Below, in pieces: positions 30,803 to 38,055 of a stretch of DNA of 64,000 nt (positions within the stretch are counted from its first letter, which is position 1; each line of letters begins with the position of its first letter). A program made the position numbers and the translations under genes. The notes under the pieces were generated by a model. That model was not told the DNA's origin and ran no database searches. It was given only the letters and a program-made list of their open reading frames with translations. The DNA comes from Longibaculum muris. Lineage in GTDB: Bacteria > Bacillota_I > Bacilli_A > Erysipelotrichales > Coprobacillaceae. The stretch is taken from the NCBI RefSeq assembly GCF_004343035.1, contig NZ_SMCQ01000002.1:1-64000 (forward strand). Reading direction: 5' to 3'.

Positions 30803-30824
30803 AAAAAATCAGGTTACCCTGATT
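30803..30824 (-). terminator. Terminator of the MarR gene
   Basis: AATCAGG (30807-30813) pairs with CCTGATT (30818-30824), loop of four, followed by six U on the minus strand. It overlaps the stop codon, so the exporter genes need their own promoter or readthrough. Confidence 0.75.
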
Positions 30825-31266
30825 ATAGCCCTTTTCTGATATTATCAATTAATTTATCAGAAATCTTAATAAACGTTTCAATTTCTTCTTGAGATAATCC
30901 TTCAATTAATTGATTATGGATTTGTTCCATATTGTATGACATCCTTTTGTTAAACTCTCGACTTAAATCGGTTAAAACAATTTTCTTCAAACGTGCATCA
31001 TGAGCAACCGGAACTCTTTGAATCATTCCTTTTTTACACATAAGCTTTAACATTTCAGAAGTTGTTGAACGATTAATAGAAAATTCAGACTCAATATCTT
31101 TTTGAAAAGTATCTACTCCCAATTCTTCTCGTTCATCTAAAAAACCTATAATCCATGTATGCATTAATGTTGCTCGATCAGGACGATGTCCAAATTTTTT
31201 ATCCATTGTTCTTTTCATCAAATTGTTCAATGTTTTAATACGATGTCCTACAGGATCACGATACAT
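30823..31266 (-). CDS. MarR family transcriptional regulator
   Basis: Winged-helix repressor, 147 residues, most likely controlling itself and the downstream exporter pair. The winged helix is clear: recognition helix region INRSTTSEMLKLMCKKGMI and the wing RVPVAHDARLKKIVLT with the conserved D-x-R. GAGGTGAT lies directly before the ATG. An operator palindrome overlaps its transcription start, and two related copies precede the exporter genes, so self-repression with drug-induced release is a fair inference. The inducer is unknown. Confidence 0.9.
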   Translation of the reverse strand: MYRDPVGHRIKTLNNLMKRTMDKKFGHRPDRATLMHTWIIGFLDEREELGVDTFQKDIESEFSINRSTTSEMLKLMCKKGMIQRVPVAHDARLKKIVLTDLSREFNKRMSYNMEQIHNQLIEGLSQEEIETFIKISDKLIDNIRKGL

Positions 31267-31358: not shown

Positions 31359-32528
31359 TCACATACAAGCTTCATCAAGACATCCTTCTTCCATAATTGC
31401 TAACGCTAATTGAATAAGATTATCTTCATCAGCTTTTTTCATTGCCCCTTTGATTGTCACATTTCCTAAATCACCCATATTCTTCATTGTACTTGTGATA
31501 TCTTTCATAGTTCTTGTAGCACATGGTGCCCATGAACCATTTTCAATATAAGCAACTGGACGATTTTGGAAATTCTTATTTTTTAAATGATGTAAGAAAT
31601 CATCCATTGGAGCAAAGACTCCGCCATCATAACTTGACGCAGCTAATACCAATCGATCATAACAAAAAGCATCCCCTATTACTTCTGAAATATCTTCATG
31701 ACATAAATTTCTTAAAATAACTTTCTCTCCGTGTTTTTCTAATTCTGTTTTTAAAAACTGAGCAGCTTCGTATGTATGTCCATGAATTGATGCACAAACA
31801 ATCAATACCCCAGCTTCTTCACTTTGATAAGAACTCCATAATTGATAATAACGTAAATATTGCATTAAGTTTTCTTTTAAAACTGGTCCATGTAATGGAC
31901 AAATGGTTTCAATATGTAGACCTTTAAGCTTCTTTAAAACATTTTGAACTTGTAATCCATATTTCCCTACAATATTTGAATAATAACGTCTTGCTTCTTC
32001 AACCCAAGGATTTTGATCATCATTAAAGGTACCAAAAGCATCAGCACTAAAAACAAGTTTTGCCTCAACAAGATAACTCATCATAACCTCTGGCCAATGA
32101 ACCATTGGTGCCATCATAAACTGTAATGTATAACGTCCTAAAGATAATGTATCCCCTTCTTTAACTTGAATACGTTTGATCTGACTATCTAAACAAAAAA
32201 ATTGGTCAATCATCTGGAATGTTTTCATATTCCCGACAATTTGAATATTTGGATATTTCTCAGCTAAAACTTGAATACATGCTCCATGATCTGGTTCCAT
32301 ATGCGAAACAACCAAATAATCAGGCTCTCTATCTTTTAATACTTCTTCAATATTTTCCATCCAGATATCTTGTACTCTTTTATCAACTGTATCCATAATA
32401 ACAATTTTCTCATCTTTTATTACATAAGAATTATATGTAACTCCTTGCTTTAATGGATATTGTCCCTCAAATAAATCTAAAGCTTGATCATTAACACCAA
32501 CATAATAAATATCTTTACCTATCTCCAT
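31359..32528 (-). CDS. Flavodiiron protein (FprA-type oxygen/NO reductase)
   Basis: Reduces O2 (or NO) to water (or N2O) in anaerobes using a diiron site and FMN. The 389-residue protein has a metallo-beta-lactamase-like domain with ligands H76, E78, D80, H81 (HMEPDH), H144 (HWPE), D163 and H213, with the family spacing, then a flavodoxin domain from about 240 (VLIVCASIHGHTYEAA). There is no fused rubredoxin, so an external donor is needed. The start MEIGKDI follows GAGGTGA. It has its own promoter after the rnf terminator, so the rnf link is proximity, not shared transcript. Confidence 0.93.
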   Translation of the reverse strand: MEIGKDIYYVGVNDQALDLFEGQYPLKQGVTYNSYVIKDEKIVIMDTVDKRVQDIWMENIEEVLKDREPDYLVVSHMEPDHGACIQVLAEKYPNIQIVGNMKTFQMIDQFFCLDSQIKRIQVKEGDTLSLGRYTLQFMMAPMVHWPEVMMSYLVEAKLVFSADAFGTFNDDQNPWVEEARRYYSNIVGKYGLQVQNVLKKLKGLHIETICPLHGPVLKENLMQYLRYYQLWSSYQSEEAGVLIVCASIHGHTYEAAQFLKTELEKHGEKVILRNLCHEDISEVIGDAFCYDRLVLAASSYDGGVFAPMDDFLHHLKNKNFQNRPVAYIENGSWAPCATRTMKDITSTMKNMGDLGNVTIKGAMKKADEDNLIQLALAIMEEGCLDEACM

Positions 32529-32546
32529 ATTTTTCACCTCTATGCT

Positions 32547-32584: not shown

Positions 32585-32616
32585 TCAAAAGAAAAGAGAT
32601 TGCTTCGCAATCTCTT
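32585..32616 (-). terminator. Terminator of the rnf operon
   Basis: AAGAGATTGC (32594-32603) pairs perfectly with GCAATCTCTT (32607-32616) around a TTC loop, followed by a U-rich tract. It overlaps the rnfB stop codon, showing that the short rnfB ends here and no ferredoxin domain follows. Confidence 0.9.
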
Positions 32617-32926
32617 AAACAGTTACTTTTACAGTTGTTCCATCTGGTCCTGGAGTTTCATTCAAGTAAGAAACAATTTTTTCTCTTGTTTCTTGATTAC
32701 TTACAACACATCCAGAAACCTTAGTTGTTTCCCCTTCAACTAAAGCATTTGCAAATCCTGAACATCCTGGGTATCCACATCCACCACAGTTTGCTCCAGG
32801 AAGCATTTCAATGACTTCAGTAACACGGTTATCTTCTTCAACAACAAGATATTTATTGGCAATTCCTAAAACACATCCAAGAACTGCACCAATCGCAACT
32901 AATGCCAAAACTGCACTAATGTTCAT
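32615..32926 (-). CDS. rnfB: Short RnfB-like subunit (membrane anchor plus one Fe-S motif)
   Basis: RnfB normally takes electrons from or to ferredoxin through several [4Fe-4S] clusters. This 103-residue version has the usual N-terminal helix, the NKYLVVEEDNRVTEVIEMLP stretch and the single cluster motif C47-x2-C50-x4-C55-x17-C73. It then ends: the two ferredoxin-type domains (eight Cys) of ordinary RnfB are absent. A terminator overlaps the stop, so this is not a frameshift. The start MNISAVLAL follows GAGGATGA and overlaps the upstream small gene by 11 bp; a longer frame of 23 codons upstream is less likely. It is last in the rnfCDGEA-x-B operon. Confidence 0.85.
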   Translation of the reverse strand: MNISAVLALVAIGAVLGCVLGIANKYLVVEEDNRVTEVIEMLPGANCGGCGYPGCSGFANALVEGETTKVSGCVVSNQETREKIVSYLNETPGPDGTTVKVTV

Positions 32927-33101
32927 CTTTGTCTTCATCCTCATGATGAGCACTATGATGAGTACAAGCAATATTGTTGCAACCACCACATTCACTCATA
33001 TCTTCACACCCCTCTGGTTTAGGAGTATGTTTATTCATTAAATAAGTTCCAATAAAGACAGCCACCAATGCAGCCATCCATACAAATGCCCAAATGCTCA
33101 T
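32916..33101 (-). CDS. Small Cys/His-rich membrane protein between rnfA and rnfB
   Basis: No recognised family. The 61-residue protein has one N-terminal helix (about 3-22), then C32-x5-C38-x2-C41-x4-C46 and a tail rich in His, Asp and Glu (four His at 48-53, acidic to the end). The C-x2-C-x4-C spacing equals that of the RnfB cluster motif. It begins with TAATG overlap at the rnfA stop and overlaps the rnfB start by 11 bp, so it is translated within the rnf operon. Inference: a metal- or Fe-S-binding accessory subunit of Rnf. A resemblance to FeoB-associated Cys-rich membrane proteins is an alternative. Confidence 0.7.
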   Translation of the reverse strand: MSIWAFVWMAALVAVFIGTYLMNKHTPKPEGCEDMSECGGCNNIACTHHSAHHEDEDKDEH

Positions 33102-33673
33102 TAGACAAGACCTGCGATTCCGGCAATAGCACATGCCATAATCCCAGCAGTAATTAGTGCAATTGGTGTTCCTTTAAAACTTTCAGGAACGTTCGCAATA
33201 TCTAATCTTTCTCTAATTGTTGCAAAGACATAAATAACAATTGTAAATCCAATAGGTACTGCAAGTCCAGCAACTGCTGCTTCAATTAAGTTATATCCAG
33301 CACTGATATTATCTAATGCAACCCCTAATACCGCACAGTTTGTTGTAATTAATGGTAAATAAACACCCATTGCTTTATAAATGTCAGGACTTGTTTTCTT
33401 TAAGAACATTTCAACGAATTGAACTAAAGAAGCAATAACTAAGATAAAAGTAATCAAATCTAAGTAAGTAATTTCTAATTTTACCAATACATAGTTATAA
33501 AGTAACCAAGTTACAATAGAAGCTACAAAAATAACAAATGTAACAGCATAACCCATGTTTAAAGCATTCTTAGGTTTCTTAGAAACCCCAAGTAATGGAC
33601 AAACAGCATAGAATTTACTTAAAACAACGTTATTAACAAAAGTTAACCCAATAAATAAACTTACTAATTCCAT
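33101..33673 (-). CDS. rnfA: Electron transport complex subunit RnfA
   Basis: Integral membrane core subunit of the Rnf ion-pumping ferredoxin:NAD+ oxidoreductase, homologous to NqrE. The 190-residue protein has six helices and the paired symmetry motifs VNNVVLSKFYAVCPLLGV and LITTNCAVLGVAL, each with the Cys that shares an intramembrane Fe-S centre with RnfE. It starts 1 bp after rnfE. Length and motifs are normal. Confidence 0.95.
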   Translation of the reverse strand: MELVSLFIGLTFVNNVVLSKFYAVCPLLGVSKKPKNALNMGYAVTFVIFVASIVTWLLYNYVLVKLEITYLDLITFILVIASLVQFVEMFLKKTSPDIYKAMGVYLPLITTNCAVLGVALDNISAGYNLIEAAVAGLAVPIGFTIVIYVFATIRERLDIANVPESFKGTPIALITAGIMACAIAGIAGLV

Positions 33674-33674
33674 C

Positions 33675-34325
33675 CTATTTCACCTCCGCATTCTTTGCTT
33701 TCTTTTCTTTTCTAACTTTTAAGAATTGAATAAAAGCAAGGATACAACCTAAAGTAATAAATGCACCTGCAGGTTGAGTAAATAATGAAACAGCATATTC
33801 ACTAAAAGCACTAAATTGGAAAATCACTTGACTTGCATCAAATGGATTAAATAAAGATAATCCACCAGTTCCAATTAATTCTCTAAAGAATGAAATCACT
33901 AAAACTGCAAATGTATAACCTAGACCCATTCCTAAAGCATCTAAGAATGAATCAACAACACCATTTTTAGAAGCAAAGCTTTCAGCTCTCCCTAAAATAA
34001 TACAGTTAACAACAATCAATGGAATGAATACCCCTAAAGACTCATATAAAGCAGGTGTATATGCATTCATAATCATTTGAACACATTTAACTAGTGTTGC
34101 AATAATAACGATGAAAACAGGAATTCTGATTTCATTTGGAATAATATTTCTTAATAATGAAATAATCACATTACTCATAATTAAGACACAAATAACTGCC
34201 ATCCCCATCCCTAACGCATTTGTTAGTGATGTCGTAATTGCTAAGGCTGAACATAGACCTAACAATAAGACAAAGATTGGGTTTTCAATAAATAAACCTT
34301 TTTTAAAAATATCAAACTTTTTCAT
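33675..34325 (-). CDS. rnfE: Electron transport complex subunit RnfE
   Basis: Membrane core subunit homologous to NqrD and partner of RnfA. The 216-residue protein has six helices with the matching Cys motifs LLGLCSALAITTSL and PLIVVNCIILGRAE, plus FFRELIGTGGL near residue 145. The C-terminal tail is basic (KVRKEKKAKNAEVK). It lies 13 bp downstream of rnfG in the operon. Confidence 0.95.
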   Translation of the reverse strand: MKKFDIFKKGLFIENPIFVLLLGLCSALAITTSLTNALGMGMAVICVLIMSNVIISLLRNIIPNEIRIPVFIVIIATLVKCVQMIMNAYTPALYESLGVFIPLIVVNCIILGRAESFASKNGVVDSFLDALGMGLGYTFAVLVISFFRELIGTGGLSLFNPFDASQVIFQFSAFSEYAVSLFTQPAGAFITLGCILAFIQFLKVRKEKKAKNAEVK

Positions 34326-34338
34326 CTATGTTCCCTCC

Positions 34339-34869
34339 TTATTTAAAATTTTCTTCATAATGTTGAGTAGCTTGTTCAATTCCATCAACAACTGCTGAAG
34401 ATGAAATAGTTGCACCACTTATTGTATCAATACTATCGCCAATATTCTTACCAACGATACCATCTTTAAATGGTTGATCTTTAACTTTTGAACCAAAGCC
34501 ATTTGTTTCACCACTGGCATCAATAACTTCATAACCTTTATAAGTTCCATCTTTATCTAAAGCAATAAGATAAACGATTGGTGTACTTGCTCCACCATAA
34601 CCAGTAACACTACATTTATAAACATAACCTTTAACACTACCACCGCTACTTGCTTCATAAACAGCTTGTAAAGCAGGATAATCTGAAAGATTTGTTTCAA
34701 CAGCTTTGAATTCTTCACCAGAAGTATAAATCTTCACTAAATTTTCTTTTTCACTAGCAATTTTTGCTTCTTGAATCACTGGATCAGTCATTTCATACAC
34801 TGATGATAAGGCTGCTCCTGAAAGTCCAGCAACGACTGCAAGGAAAAGAGCTAATTTTAATATTTTCAT
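34339..34869 (-). CDS. rnfG: Electron transport complex subunit RnfG
   Basis: Extracytoplasmic flavoprotein subunit anchored by one N-terminal helix (about 3-24), homologous to NqrC. The 176-residue protein ends with the FMN-binding domain and the flavinylation motif DTISGATISS, in which the second Thr would be modified by ApbE. No apbE gene is in the window. It precedes rnfE by 13 bp and follows rnfD by 12 bp. Confidence 0.95.
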   Translation of the reverse strand: MKILKLALFLAVVAGLSGAALSSVYEMTDPVIQEAKIASEKENLVKIYTSGEEFKAVETNLSDYPALQAVYEASSGGSVKGYVYKCSVTGYGGASTPIVYLIALDKDGTYKGYEVIDASGETNGFGSKVKDQPFKDGIVGKNIGDSIDTISGATISSSAVVDGIEQATQHYEENFK

Positions 34870-34881
34870 AGATGTTCCTCC

Positions 34882-36732
34882 TTATTTTGTTGCTGCAATT
34901 GCTTTTTTAATTGCAGTAACAATTCCTTTCGTTGTCATTGTTGCACCAGTTTTTGTATCAACTCCATCAATATCAGCAAAACCAAATTCACTTGCTAAGT
35001 ATTTGTCATAGAAAGCTTTTCCTTTTTCTGTTGCTACTGGAGTTCCATGAACTAATTCAGCACCATAGTATTCTGTTTCACCAGATGCATCAATAAATTC
35101 AATCTTTTTCACAACTTGTTTTGCTTTATCTACAGTAATTTTGATTTTCATTGGTTGATCAGCATTGTATCCAACTTCACTCATTGTATAAACATAAGTG
35201 TCACCTTTGACTTCACGATCTAATTGAGACATGATAATAGCACCCTTAATTGCATTAACGATACCTTTTGTTGTCATTGTCGCACCAGTCTTTGTATCAA
35301 TACCATCAACTTCACTTGTTTTAAATTCACCAGTTAAATACTTATCATGGAATGCTTTACCTTTTTCAGTTGCTACTTCTGTTCCATGAACAATTTCAGA
35401 ACCATAATATTCTGTTTCACCAGGAGCTTCTAAGACTTTAACAGATTTAACTGTGTCACCAGATACTTTAACTTCAATTTTCATTGGTTGATCAGCATTA
35501 TATCCAGTTGTTTCCATAACAAAACCACCATCAACTTCTTTAACAACCTTCCAATTGAAAGCATTCGCTTCTTCTTCAGCCTTTTTCTTTTCAGCTTCTT
35601 CTTTTTTCTTCGCATCAGCAGCAGCTTTTGCTTCAGCCGCAGCAATATCGCTTTGGATACTATATCCAGCACCATAAACGCAACCAATAGACACACCTAA
35701 ACAAATAGCAATTGTAGCCCATTGTTTTGCAATTCTTGTATTTGTTCTACCTAAAATAAATGAATCAATTAATGGTGTTAACATATTCATCAATAAGATA
35801 GAGAATAAAACACCTTCAGGATAATTCGCTTTTAAACGAATAATCATTGTTAAAAATCCTAGTCCAATACCATAAACAATCTTACCAAGTGGACTTGTAG
35901 GCGATGTCACCGGATCTGTTGCCATGAAAATAGCTCCAAATGCTACCCCACCAATACATAAATGCATCACTGGATAAGTTGCTAAATCAAGACCATTCAT
36001 TAATGCATAAACACCACTTAAAATAAGAATAGTTCCTAAATAAGCTACTGGAATTCTTGCATCATAAACTTTTCTAAAAGCTAAAACAATTCCAACTAAT
36101 AAAATTAACCAGATACAAGTTTCACCTAAAGTTCCACCATGATTTCCTGTAATTAAATCCATCAATGTGTAACTAAAATCAGTTCCACCCATCCAATGAG
36201 TACCAGCAAGCATTGTAGCTGGTGTTGCTGTTGATGTGACATCAACAATTCCTTGAACACCACCCATTCCTTCAACATATGGTAATAATTTATCACCAAA
36301 TGATAAATGAACAAGAACACGTCCAACTAATGCTGGGTTAAAAATGTTTTGACCAAATCCACCAAAAACTAATTTTCCTAAGAAAATAGAAATAAATGAA
36401 CCAATCGCAACAACATATAAAGGTGTACCAATAGGTAAAGTCAAGGCAAAAATAATTGCGGTTACCCAAGGAAACCCATTTTTTATTTGTTCTAATACAT
36501 TTGTTTTATGGATAAGTCCCCACACTGCTTCAGTTGCAACTCCCACAACAATTGAAACCACATAAATAAGTGCTGCCGCAATCAATGGTTCATTTGTTGG
36601 GTAGTTATAATAGAAATGATATAAAGAATATGCAACAATCACCAATAATCCGATTGTTAAATCTCTCATAATACGATGTGTAGAGAGTTTTTGTCTATAG
36701 TTTGGTGACGTTCTTTGTAAAGTAATCTTCAT
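34882..36732 (-). CDS. rnfD: RnfD with two fused C-terminal FMN-binding domains
   Basis: The first 355 residues are an RnfD/NqrB-type membrane subunit with about ten helices; VDVTSTATPATML (163-175) occupies the usual flavin-Thr site and ATDPVTSPTSP (271-281) is conserved. After a charged Ala/Lys/Glu linker (about 362-392) come two RnfG-like FMN-binding domains, about 399-500 and 507-616. Each contains GYNADQPMKI, GETEYYG, and the motif DTKTGATMTT (Thr485 and Thr598 as likely FMN sites). Ordinary RnfD is about 310-350 residues; this one has 616. The two domains are very alike, indicating tandem duplication. Predicted to carry up to three covalent FMN. Confidence 0.92.
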   Translation of the reverse strand: MKITLQRTSPNYRQKLSTHRIMRDLTIGLLVIVAYSLYHFYYNYPTNEPLIAAALIYVVSIVVGVATEAVWGLIHKTNVLEQIKNGFPWVTAIIFALTLPIGTPLYVVAIGSFISIFLGKLVFGGFGQNIFNPALVGRVLVHLSFGDKLLPYVEGMGGVQGIVDVTSTATPATMLAGTHWMGGTDFSYTLMDLITGNHGGTLGETCIWLILLVGIVLAFRKVYDARIPVAYLGTILILSGVYALMNGLDLATYPVMHLCIGGVAFGAIFMATDPVTSPTSPLGKIVYGIGLGFLTMIIRLKANYPEGVLFSILLMNMLTPLIDSFILGRTNTRIAKQWATIAICLGVSIGCVYGAGYSIQSDIAAAEAKAAADAKKKEEAEKKKAEEEANAFNWKVVKEVDGGFVMETTGYNADQPMKIEVKVSGDTVKSVKVLEAPGETEYYGSEIVHGTEVATEKGKAFHDKYLTGEFKTSEVDGIDTKTGATMTTKGIVNAIKGAIIMSQLDREVKGDTYVYTMSEVGYNADQPMKIKITVDKAKQVVKKIEFIDASGETEYYGAELVHGTPVATEKGKAFYDKYLASEFGFADIDGVDTKTGATMTTKGIVTAIKKAIAATK

Positions 36733-36747
36733 TAATTTTCACCCTCC

Positions 36748-38055
36748 CTACGCTTTCTTTCTCTTTTGTGCAAGTTGATAACGACGTTTTGCTTTTGCTA
36801 CCATGTCTGTCACTTCAATCTTACTTGGACATACATAAGTACACATACCACATTCAATACAACGATCAACTTCCAATTTTTCAATTAATTCAACATTAGC
36901 TGCTTTTTCACCTTGCATAATACGCACAGGTTGTAAATGAGCAGGACAATGTAAAGTACATTCACCACATTTTAAACATGGTAAAGGTTTAATATCTTCT
37001 TTTTTCATGACTGTAATAGCATTGTTATGACTATAAATAACAAATGTATCATTCATGACTGATTTACCCATCATTGGTCCACCACCAACTAAGAATCCAT
37101 CACAATCTTCATCAATATAACCACCAAGTTTTTCAACAATATAGTTAACTGGTGTTCCAATTGCAACTTCAACGTTTTGTGGATTTTTTAATCCATTTCC
37201 AGAGAAAGTGACAACACGGTGAGTAATTGGTTCACCTTTTCTAATACCTTTAGATAAAGCAATTGCTGTTGATGAGTTATTAACAATAACACCAATTTCA
37301 GCAGGTAATTTATCATATTCTTTTTTAAAGATAGTATTCACTAAAACTCTTTCCCATCCCATTGGATAACGATCAGGTACTTCACGTGGTTCAATGTTAT
37401 CATAGTTCTTTGCTTCTTCAACTAATAATTCCATTAAATCAGGTTTATGTTCTTTAATCGCAATAATCGCATTCTTAGCTCCAGCAGCTTTGATTAAGAA
37501 GTGAGCCCCATCAAATAAAGCTTTAACATCTCTTTTCATCGCAAGATGATCACTTGTTAAAAATGGTTCACATTCTACCCCATTAATCAAGATTGTTTCA
37601 ATATTTGTTGGATTGCTATATTTCACATAAGTAGGGAATCCTGATCCTCCTAATCCAACAATACCTAATTCTTTAATGGCATTAAAGACTTCTTCTTGAC
37701 TCATATGGTCAGCATCTTTGACTTCATAAGCTTTTACTCTTTCGTTCTTATGGTCATTTTCAATGACGATATGCTGCTGTAATCTTTTTGAAGCATGCAT
37801 ACGTTTTTCAATTCCCTTAACAGTTCCCGAAACAGAAGAATAAATTGGCACATACATACTCTTACGAGTAGCCAACTTTGTACCTATACAAACATGATCT
37901 CCTTCTTTTACATGGACATCAAAATCTGTTGCTGTTCCTAAAACAAGGGGAATATAAACAACATCTGGTGCTTCAATAGACAAGATTGGTTTATCTTTTG
38001 TTAAACCTTTTTGTCCATCTAGTTTAATTTTTCCTTTTCCAGATAAAATTGACAT
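36748..38055 (-). CDS. rnfC: Electron transport complex subunit RnfC
   Basis: Peripheral NADH-binding subunit of Rnf, homologous to NqrF/NuoF parts. The 435-residue protein has the glycine-rich nucleotide/FMN region GIVGLGGSGFPTYVK, followed by GVECEPFLTSDH, a SLBB-like segment, and two ferredoxin-like clusters CLKCGECTLHCP (about 359-370) and CIECGMCTYVCPSKI (about 398-412). It is the first gene of the operon, preceded by GGAGGG, an extended -10 promoter and a Rex-like operator. Confidence 0.95.
   Translation of the reverse strand: MSILSGKGKIKLDGQKGLTKDKPILSIEAPDVVYIPLVLGTATDFDVHVKEGDHVCIGTKLATRKSMYVPIYSSVSGTVKGIEKRMHASKRLQQHIVIENDHKNERVKAYEVKDADHMSQEEVFNAIKELGIVGLGGSGFPTYVKYSNPTNIETILINGVECEPFLTSDHLAMKRDVKALFDGAHFLIKAAGAKNAIIAIKEHKPDLMELLVEEAKNYDNIEPREVPDRYPMGWERVLVNTIFKKEYDKLPAEIGVIVNNSSTAIALSKGIRKGEPITHRVVTFSGNGLKNPQNVEVAIGTPVNYIVEKLGGYIDEDCDGFLVGGGPMMGKSVMNDTFVIYSHNNAITVMKKEDIKPLPCLKCGECTLHCPAHLQPVRIMQGEKAANVELIEKLEVDRCIECGMCTYVCPSKIEVTDMVAKAKRRYQLAQKRKKA

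Follow-up and report, generated by a model that had tools for sequence, protein, structure and literature searches.

A one-cluster RnfB and a small cysteine-rich membrane protein encoded beside it in the Rnf operon of Longibaculum muris and related bacteria

Background

Rnf is a main energy-conserving pump of anaerobes, and how small its working form can be is at issue in an operon of Longibaculum muris. The window analysed here, a stretch of 64,000 nucleotides (positions 1 to 64,000 of contig NZ_SMCQ01000002.1, assembly GCF_004343035.1), carries an rnf operon on the reverse strand whose last gene encodes an RnfB of 103 residues. Is this gene damaged, or is the short RnfB a natural form, and if so, where would electrons enter the complex?

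The rnfB gene and its 3′ end

The rnfB gene (32615..32926, reverse strand) runs from an ATG at 32926 to a TAA at 32617-32615. A sequence-only reading of this DNA had described its product as an N-terminal helix followed by one C-x2-C-x4-C-x17-C motif, and translation of 32926-32615 and an AlphaFold2 model (mean pLDDT 90.1) agree with that description. The transmembrane helix spans residues 3-26 (32849..32920). The [4Fe-4S] motif, of the FdI/B8 type, is C47-x2-C50-x4-C55-x17-C73 (32708..32788); it is found in the translation, by PF04060, by Foldseek and in alignments of relatives, across which its cysteines are unchanged. In the model, about 50 residues of the soluble part resemble the [4Fe-4S] domain of the corrinoid iron-sulfur protein CFeSP (Foldseek probability 1.00, rmsd 1.1-1.4, E 0.006-0.06). 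The match to PF04060 (50 bits) is above the cut-off. The match to TIGR01944 (65.1 bits, cut-off 68.7) falls narrowly below it because the C-terminal half of this 190-position model is missing, with only model positions 5-92 covered. The protein is acidic (11 D/E vs 6 K/R).

The C-terminal 2[4Fe-4S] ferredoxin domains of ordinary RnfB are absent in every frame, which bears out the earlier statement that they have been lost, and RnfB proteins of the short type lack them order-wide. The stop does lie, as that reading also said, in a strong terminator: it runs into the 10-pair stem (32616-32594) of an intrinsic terminator that ends the operon (32594..32616, reverse strand; loop of 3, T-rich tail), and TTCTTTTG directly follows the stem. 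Between the rnfB stop and the next gene, none of the three frames examined carries a ferredoxin motif, so a frameshift ahead of the stop is excluded on the present sequence.

Short RnfB among relatives

The alignment with RnfB proteins of relatives, which the sequence-only reading had proposed as a check, found the short form conserved: the same length and C-terminal tail recur in 18 aligned relatives and order-wide. In the window the tail reads YLNETPGPDG (32639..32668, reverse strand) and was placed by two alignments. Its typical form in the window's family is YLNxTPGPDGxTxKVT, and related tails occur elsewhere in the class. Such a recurring tail is as expected of a natural C-terminus. A short-RnfB profile matched in 224 of the 316 genomes of the order, the strong matches listed lying in frames of 88-163 aa. 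Approximately 205 of the order's genomes encode short RnfB proteins of about 92-126 aa, and so do genomes from other families of the class. There RnfB measures about 95-130 aa, except for one protein of 187 aa (L197:6625-7188, reverse strand) that carries a duplicated FeS domain, that is, two CFeSP-type domains in tandem, with a second copy of the small gene described below lying downstream. In one genome of the dataset (G001, L009:9161-9424) a frame change after an A-run near the end of rnfB leaves 87 aa, either by sequencing error or in reality.

The only ground for regarding the window's rnfB as a truncated pseudogene or a sequencing frameshift is that its product is shorter than the well-known RnfB proteins. 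The terminator abutting the stop, the lack of any ferredoxin motif downstream and the recurrence of this length and tail in some 205 genomes of the order, and throughout the class, all contradict it. We therefore give this explanation practically no credence and regard truncation or frameshift as refuted by conservation.

Within the window's family, short RnfB was found in 20 further genomes and long RnfB, of approximately 260-300 aa where it is not cut by a contig end, in 13. Across the order, the long-type matches comprise 13 in one family (f1) and four in another (f2; genomes G075, G079, G086 and G263). In a phylogenetic tree of RnfA, RnfE and RnfC from 107 operons, built by a quick method and rooted at the midpoint, a single branch with a support of 100 groups all 53 short-type operons together. 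Operons with long RnfB, found in a few sister genera, fall outside this clade, and those of the window's family group with clostridial operons, which is consistent with their replacement by transfer. The direction of change can only be inferred, since the method is quick and the root is a midpoint. With this proviso, calling the RnfB "reduced" is fair as a description of evolution, since long types surround the short type in the tree. The word does not fit as a description of a defective gene, as this is an old, stable and class-wide state. Judged by its distribution, short RnfB is a true variant of the predicted Rnf pump, spread class-wide in Erysipelotrichales-type bacteria. A literature search for short RnfB in Erysipelotrichales returned nothing.

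The operon and the rest of the genome

The gene order is rnfC-D-G-E-A-smallP-B, in which smallP denotes a small gene discussed in the next section. All six Rnf subunit genes stand in one cluster on the reverse strand, and TIGR01943, 01945, 01946 and 01948 are matched over their cut-offs. RnfG and RnfB score under their TIGR cut-offs, yet PF04205 and PF04060, respectively, are matched above theirs. RnfA (33101..33673; TIGR01943) keeps C25 and C113, at the [2Fe-2S] ligand positions named for Acetobacterium woodii RnfA (PMC11889175), and RnfE (33675..34325; TIGR01948) likewise keeps both of its ligand cysteines, C25 and C108. RnfG (34339..34869; PF04205 over cut-off, TIGR01947 matched below cut-off) has the flavinylation motif SGATIS; with an ApbE flavin transferase encoded in the genome (192 bits), what covalent FMN requires is present. 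RnfC (36748..38055, 435 aa; TIGR01945) has both 4Fe-4S motifs intact, at residues 360 and 399. By gene content and conserved ligands, the predicted product of the operon is an Rnf complex. An Rfam search of the window found a tRNA only. The idea of a compensating change at the RnfC C-terminus was rejected, as RnfC ends in a tail of much the same length whether RnfB is short or long.

RnfD (34882..36732, 616 aa; PF03116) is extended at its C-terminus by an extra hydrophobic helix, a linker rich in Lys, Ala and Glu and two FMN_bind domains (34897-35157 and 35236-35490, reverse strand; PF04205 twice), each with a TGATMT motif, which may add up to two covalent flavins outside the cell. Elsewhere in the class, outside the order, RnfG is enlarged (321-610 aa) or duplicated (L188, L199, L200, L201), suggesting multi-flavin Rnf there too. 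In the window's genome apbE adjoins a gene for a lipoprotein whose two repeated domains resemble FMN_bind on visual inspection and give no PF04205 match (L212:1414-3573). After the operon come a flavodiiron-type gene (ODP and flavodoxin domains, 31359-32537) and a MarR regulator gene (30823-31266). Both were rejected as constant Rnf partners: their linkage to rnf is confined to part of the window's own family.

These features raise another explanation, namely that the complex has switched to a different cytoplasmic donor, such as flavodoxin or a dedicated protein, or that it runs mainly to extracellular acceptors by way of the extra RnfD flavin domains. The helix and the two FMN_bind domains that extend RnfD would suit it, as would the downstream flavodiiron gene, and extracytosolic acceptors have been proposed for multi-flavinylated RNF complexes (PMC8238504). 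However, RnfC retains both clusters and its NADH/FMN domain, the genome encodes PFOR, and the flavodiiron gene is linked to rnf in few genomes only. Moreover, the RnfD extension is evidently optional, since short-type operons encode RnfD proteins of 349 to 719 aa, with extensions from none to several hundred residues. We consider such a switch improbable.

The window's genome (3.17 Mb in 56 contigs, 100% complete) has one match to the RnfB N-domain (63.3 bits). TIGR01944 gave 8 further matches genome-wide, all shorter and lower-scoring; those inspected are stretches of ferredoxin type within a NuoF-like/[FeFe]-hydrogenase cluster, a glycyl-radical activase and others. Because these belong to other proteins, we find no second RnfB and no full-length one elsewhere in the genome. 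Neither of the two outcomes that the earlier reading had named as refuting it, a frameshift before the stop or a second complete rnfB, therefore applies. No stand-alone polyferredoxin was found either: the TIGR01944 and FdxA matches inspected lie in other enzymes or in a ferredoxin-like ORF of 94 aa on contig C33.

An overlooked gene between rnfA and rnfB

Automatic annotation and the sequence-only reading both passed over a gene of 61 codons at 32916..33101 on the reverse strand, which we call smallP. It shares bases with both neighbours, its ATG with the rnfA stop codon (TAATG) and its last 11 nt with rnfB. The encoded protein has one predicted transmembrane helix (residues 3-24) and the motif C32-x5-C38-x2-C41-x4-C46 (32964..33008); outside the helix, the rest of its AlphaFold2 model is of low confidence. 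Purifying selection on the gene is evident (dN/dS 0.04-0.19 against five relatives). The four cysteines are invariant in 26 of 26 order-wide sequences, and the four-cysteine pattern occurs in 66 of the 69 rnf-linked copies; the other three depart from it, two of them lacking the first cysteine. Some smallP proteins of the class have three cysteines. The window copy is acidic (10 D/E vs 3 K/R).

No Pfam or NCBIfam family could be assigned to smallP and no relative was found in the PDB. The nearest resemblance, a weak one, is to PF12669, matched in 12 of 26 members (best E 0.0013), among which the window copy is not listed. NqrM (DUF539) gave no Pfam match in the 26 members even at E 10. As identities for smallP, therefore, NqrM, RnfH and any Pfam, NCBIfam or PDB relative beyond this weak PF12669 resemblance were rejected. 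Relatives that stand alone, away from rnf and in unrelated neighbourhoods, occur in other families of the class (L191, L192, L193, L194, L195, L203); their cysteine motif is shortened, mostly to C-x2-C-x4-C only, and their neighbours share no consistent function.

The distribution of smallP follows that of short RnfB. Taking as "beside" a distance within 700 bases on the same strand, smallP stands beside short RnfB in 69 of 69 loci, some of them the same genome fetched twice and some chosen because they match smallP, and beside long RnfB in none of 82 loci, one of which is cut by a contig end. The loci chosen by RnfB and not by smallP show the same split. In the order, 207 genomes carry smallP and all 207 have an RnfB match; the 17 genomes with an RnfB match and no smallP are 16 of the long type (13 in f1, 3 in f2) plus one fragment at a contig edge. 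The exception is G075: its rnf operon encodes a long RnfB and lacks smallP, of which an orphan copy lies elsewhere in the genome. This orphan is intact and stands divergently beside apbE, where the rnf operon of relatives begins (L222:5410-6791). Since the association has essentially one evolutionary origin (one clade), it shows, as far as the sequences go, long co-retention rather than repeated co-gain. By this distribution smallP is probably an obligate partner of the short-RnfB Rnf lineage.

Electron path and the role of smallP

The sequence-only reading had held that with the ferredoxin domains gone the entry or exit point of the complex must differ. The module is indeed absent. The need for an unusual entry or exit, or for a changed donor, is not supported, because Rnf of Thermotoga maritima with a one-cluster RnfB works and accepts clostridial ferredoxin. 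Its RnfB is a 10.56 kDa protein with one predicted 4Fe-4S site (Kuhns 2020, PMC7414866). The purified complex oxidises Clostridium pasteurianum ferredoxin, reduces NAD+ and translocates Na+, in a preparation in which RnfC, D and G only were identified by mass spectrometry (PMC7414866). In the solved Rnf complexes, the transmembrane helix and FdI/B8 domain of RnfB form the mobile carrier to the [2Fe-2S] cluster of RnfA and RnfE, and in A. woodii removal of the FdI cluster abolishes activity (PMC11889175, PMC9588780). Because FdI is the mobile carrier there and the one-cluster RnfB of T. maritima works, FdI of the short RnfB probably takes electrons directly from ferredoxin. One difficulty is that no basic dock for an acidic ferredoxin is obvious, as RnfB and smallP are both acidic.

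Considering the gene content, the conservation, the ligands and motifs, the association of smallP with short RnfB and the single clade, we think it likely that the product of the operon is a pump complete as a ferredoxin:NAD+ oxidoreductase, and that it belongs to a distinct, monophyletic lineage of Rnf whose RnfB is an anchor with a mobile FdI domain and whose obligate partner is smallP. Ferredoxin reduced by PFOR would pass electrons to the FdI cluster without a multi-cluster relay, and FdI would swing to the [2Fe-2S] cluster between RnfA and RnfE. From there electrons would reach RnfG with its FMN, then RnfD with its flavins, then RnfC with its two clusters and FMN, and finally NAD+, with Na+ or H+ moved outward along the way. 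The likeliest role for smallP is that of a small subunit lying by RnfB on the cytoplasmic side, where electrons enter; the second choice would be a factor for Fe-S cluster loading. This path is modelled on the solved complexes and on T. maritima; the docking of ferredoxin directly on FdI, and what smallP does, we infer.

SmallP is a concrete candidate for the "other protein" that the earlier reading had listed among the possible routes into or out of the complex. It is presumably either an accessory subunit, with or without a cluster, or a maturation factor resembling NqrM, and both fit. Its tie to short RnfB favours a subunit at the entry side. A more specific form of this reading, possible but on balance doubtful, is that smallP bears an Fe-S cluster and replaces in trans part of the relay of the C-terminal ferredoxin domains. 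Its one-to-one association with an RnfB devoid of these domains would then be expected; its C-x2-C-x4-C has the same spacing as the RnfB cluster loop, the four cysteines are invariant in the order, and the cysteine segment is likely cytoplasmic, because charged residues sit C-terminal of the helix. On the other hand, helix and motif lie just a few residues apart, the model is of low confidence outside the helix, some class members have three cysteines only, and the T. maritima precedent suggests that a relay is unnecessary. We tentatively put forward, as an equally doubtful extension of this reading, that Rnf has in smallP a seventh, redox-active subunit. This mini Fe-S protein, anchored in the membrane, would form a split minimal ferredoxin entry with the one-cluster RnfB, the polyferredoxin relay being replaced in trans in a class-wide type of Rnf.

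NqrM (DUF539) is a small membrane protein encoded with Na+-NQR and thought to be needed for its intramembrane [2Fe-2S] cluster. A comparable role for smallP, as a maturation factor for the [2Fe-2S] cluster of RnfA and RnfE and not a redox subunit, is a serious possibility, if somewhat short of an even chance. The gene directly follows rnfA, which encodes ligands of that cluster; this position, the copies without a fourth cysteine (three rnf-linked copies being off the pattern, two without the first cysteine) and the orphan that G075 keeps beside apbE, though its rnf operon is of the long type, favour it, and so does the occurrence of stand-alone relatives away from rnf. However, the 26 members give no NqrM match, and long-type Rnf complexes have the same [2Fe-2S] cluster without any smallP. 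Furthermore, a smallP that served RnfA and RnfE alone would be confined to short-RnfB operons just by an accident of descent.

In itself a one-cluster RnfB is not new, since that of T. maritima has been described before. Within the searches made, what looks new is the class-wide fixation of short RnfB as one clade, together with a constant extra cysteine-rich membrane protein. A class-wide set of one-cluster Rnf in cultured gut bacteria (Holdemanella and relatives) would allow a test of whether FdI alone takes electrons from ferredoxin. As a candidate for a missing subunit or maturation factor, smallP bears on Fe-S cluster placement in Rnf and Nqr pumps and on how the T. maritima complex is read.

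Comparison with known systems

Among small membrane proteins, the FeoB-associated cysteine-rich membrane protein (PF12669) is similar to smallP in size, in its one helix and in its cysteine-rich tail, but the match is weak and smallP is encoded with rnf in the operons read. NqrM differs in that smallP lacks a DUF539 match and in that NqrM is not linked to short RnfB. Azotobacter vinelandii Rnf1 with RnfH (PMC12174285) likewise has a lineage-specific extra small subunit beside RnfB/RnfC. RnfH, however, is cytoplasmic and without cofactor, whereas smallP is predicted to be membrane-anchored and is cysteine-rich, and the RnfB of Rnf1 has two further clusters (PMC12174285) that the window RnfB lacks. 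With the complexes of A. woodii and Clostridium tetanomorphum (PMC11889175, PMC9588780) the window operon shares the six core subunits and the conserved AE1 ligand positions, and the helix and FdI/B8 domain of its RnfB can be aligned with 7zc6_B and 9eri_B, the RnfB chains of these two species. Their RnfB proteins contain 5-7 further clusters, absent here, and no smallP was seen in the long-type operons read. T. maritima belongs to a different phylum from the window's organism and, unlike the window operon, has no extra gene reported between rnfA and rnfB, a comparison made by published description only. The two nevertheless share the core gene order CDGEAB and an RnfB that holds one 4Fe-4S site in about 100 aa.
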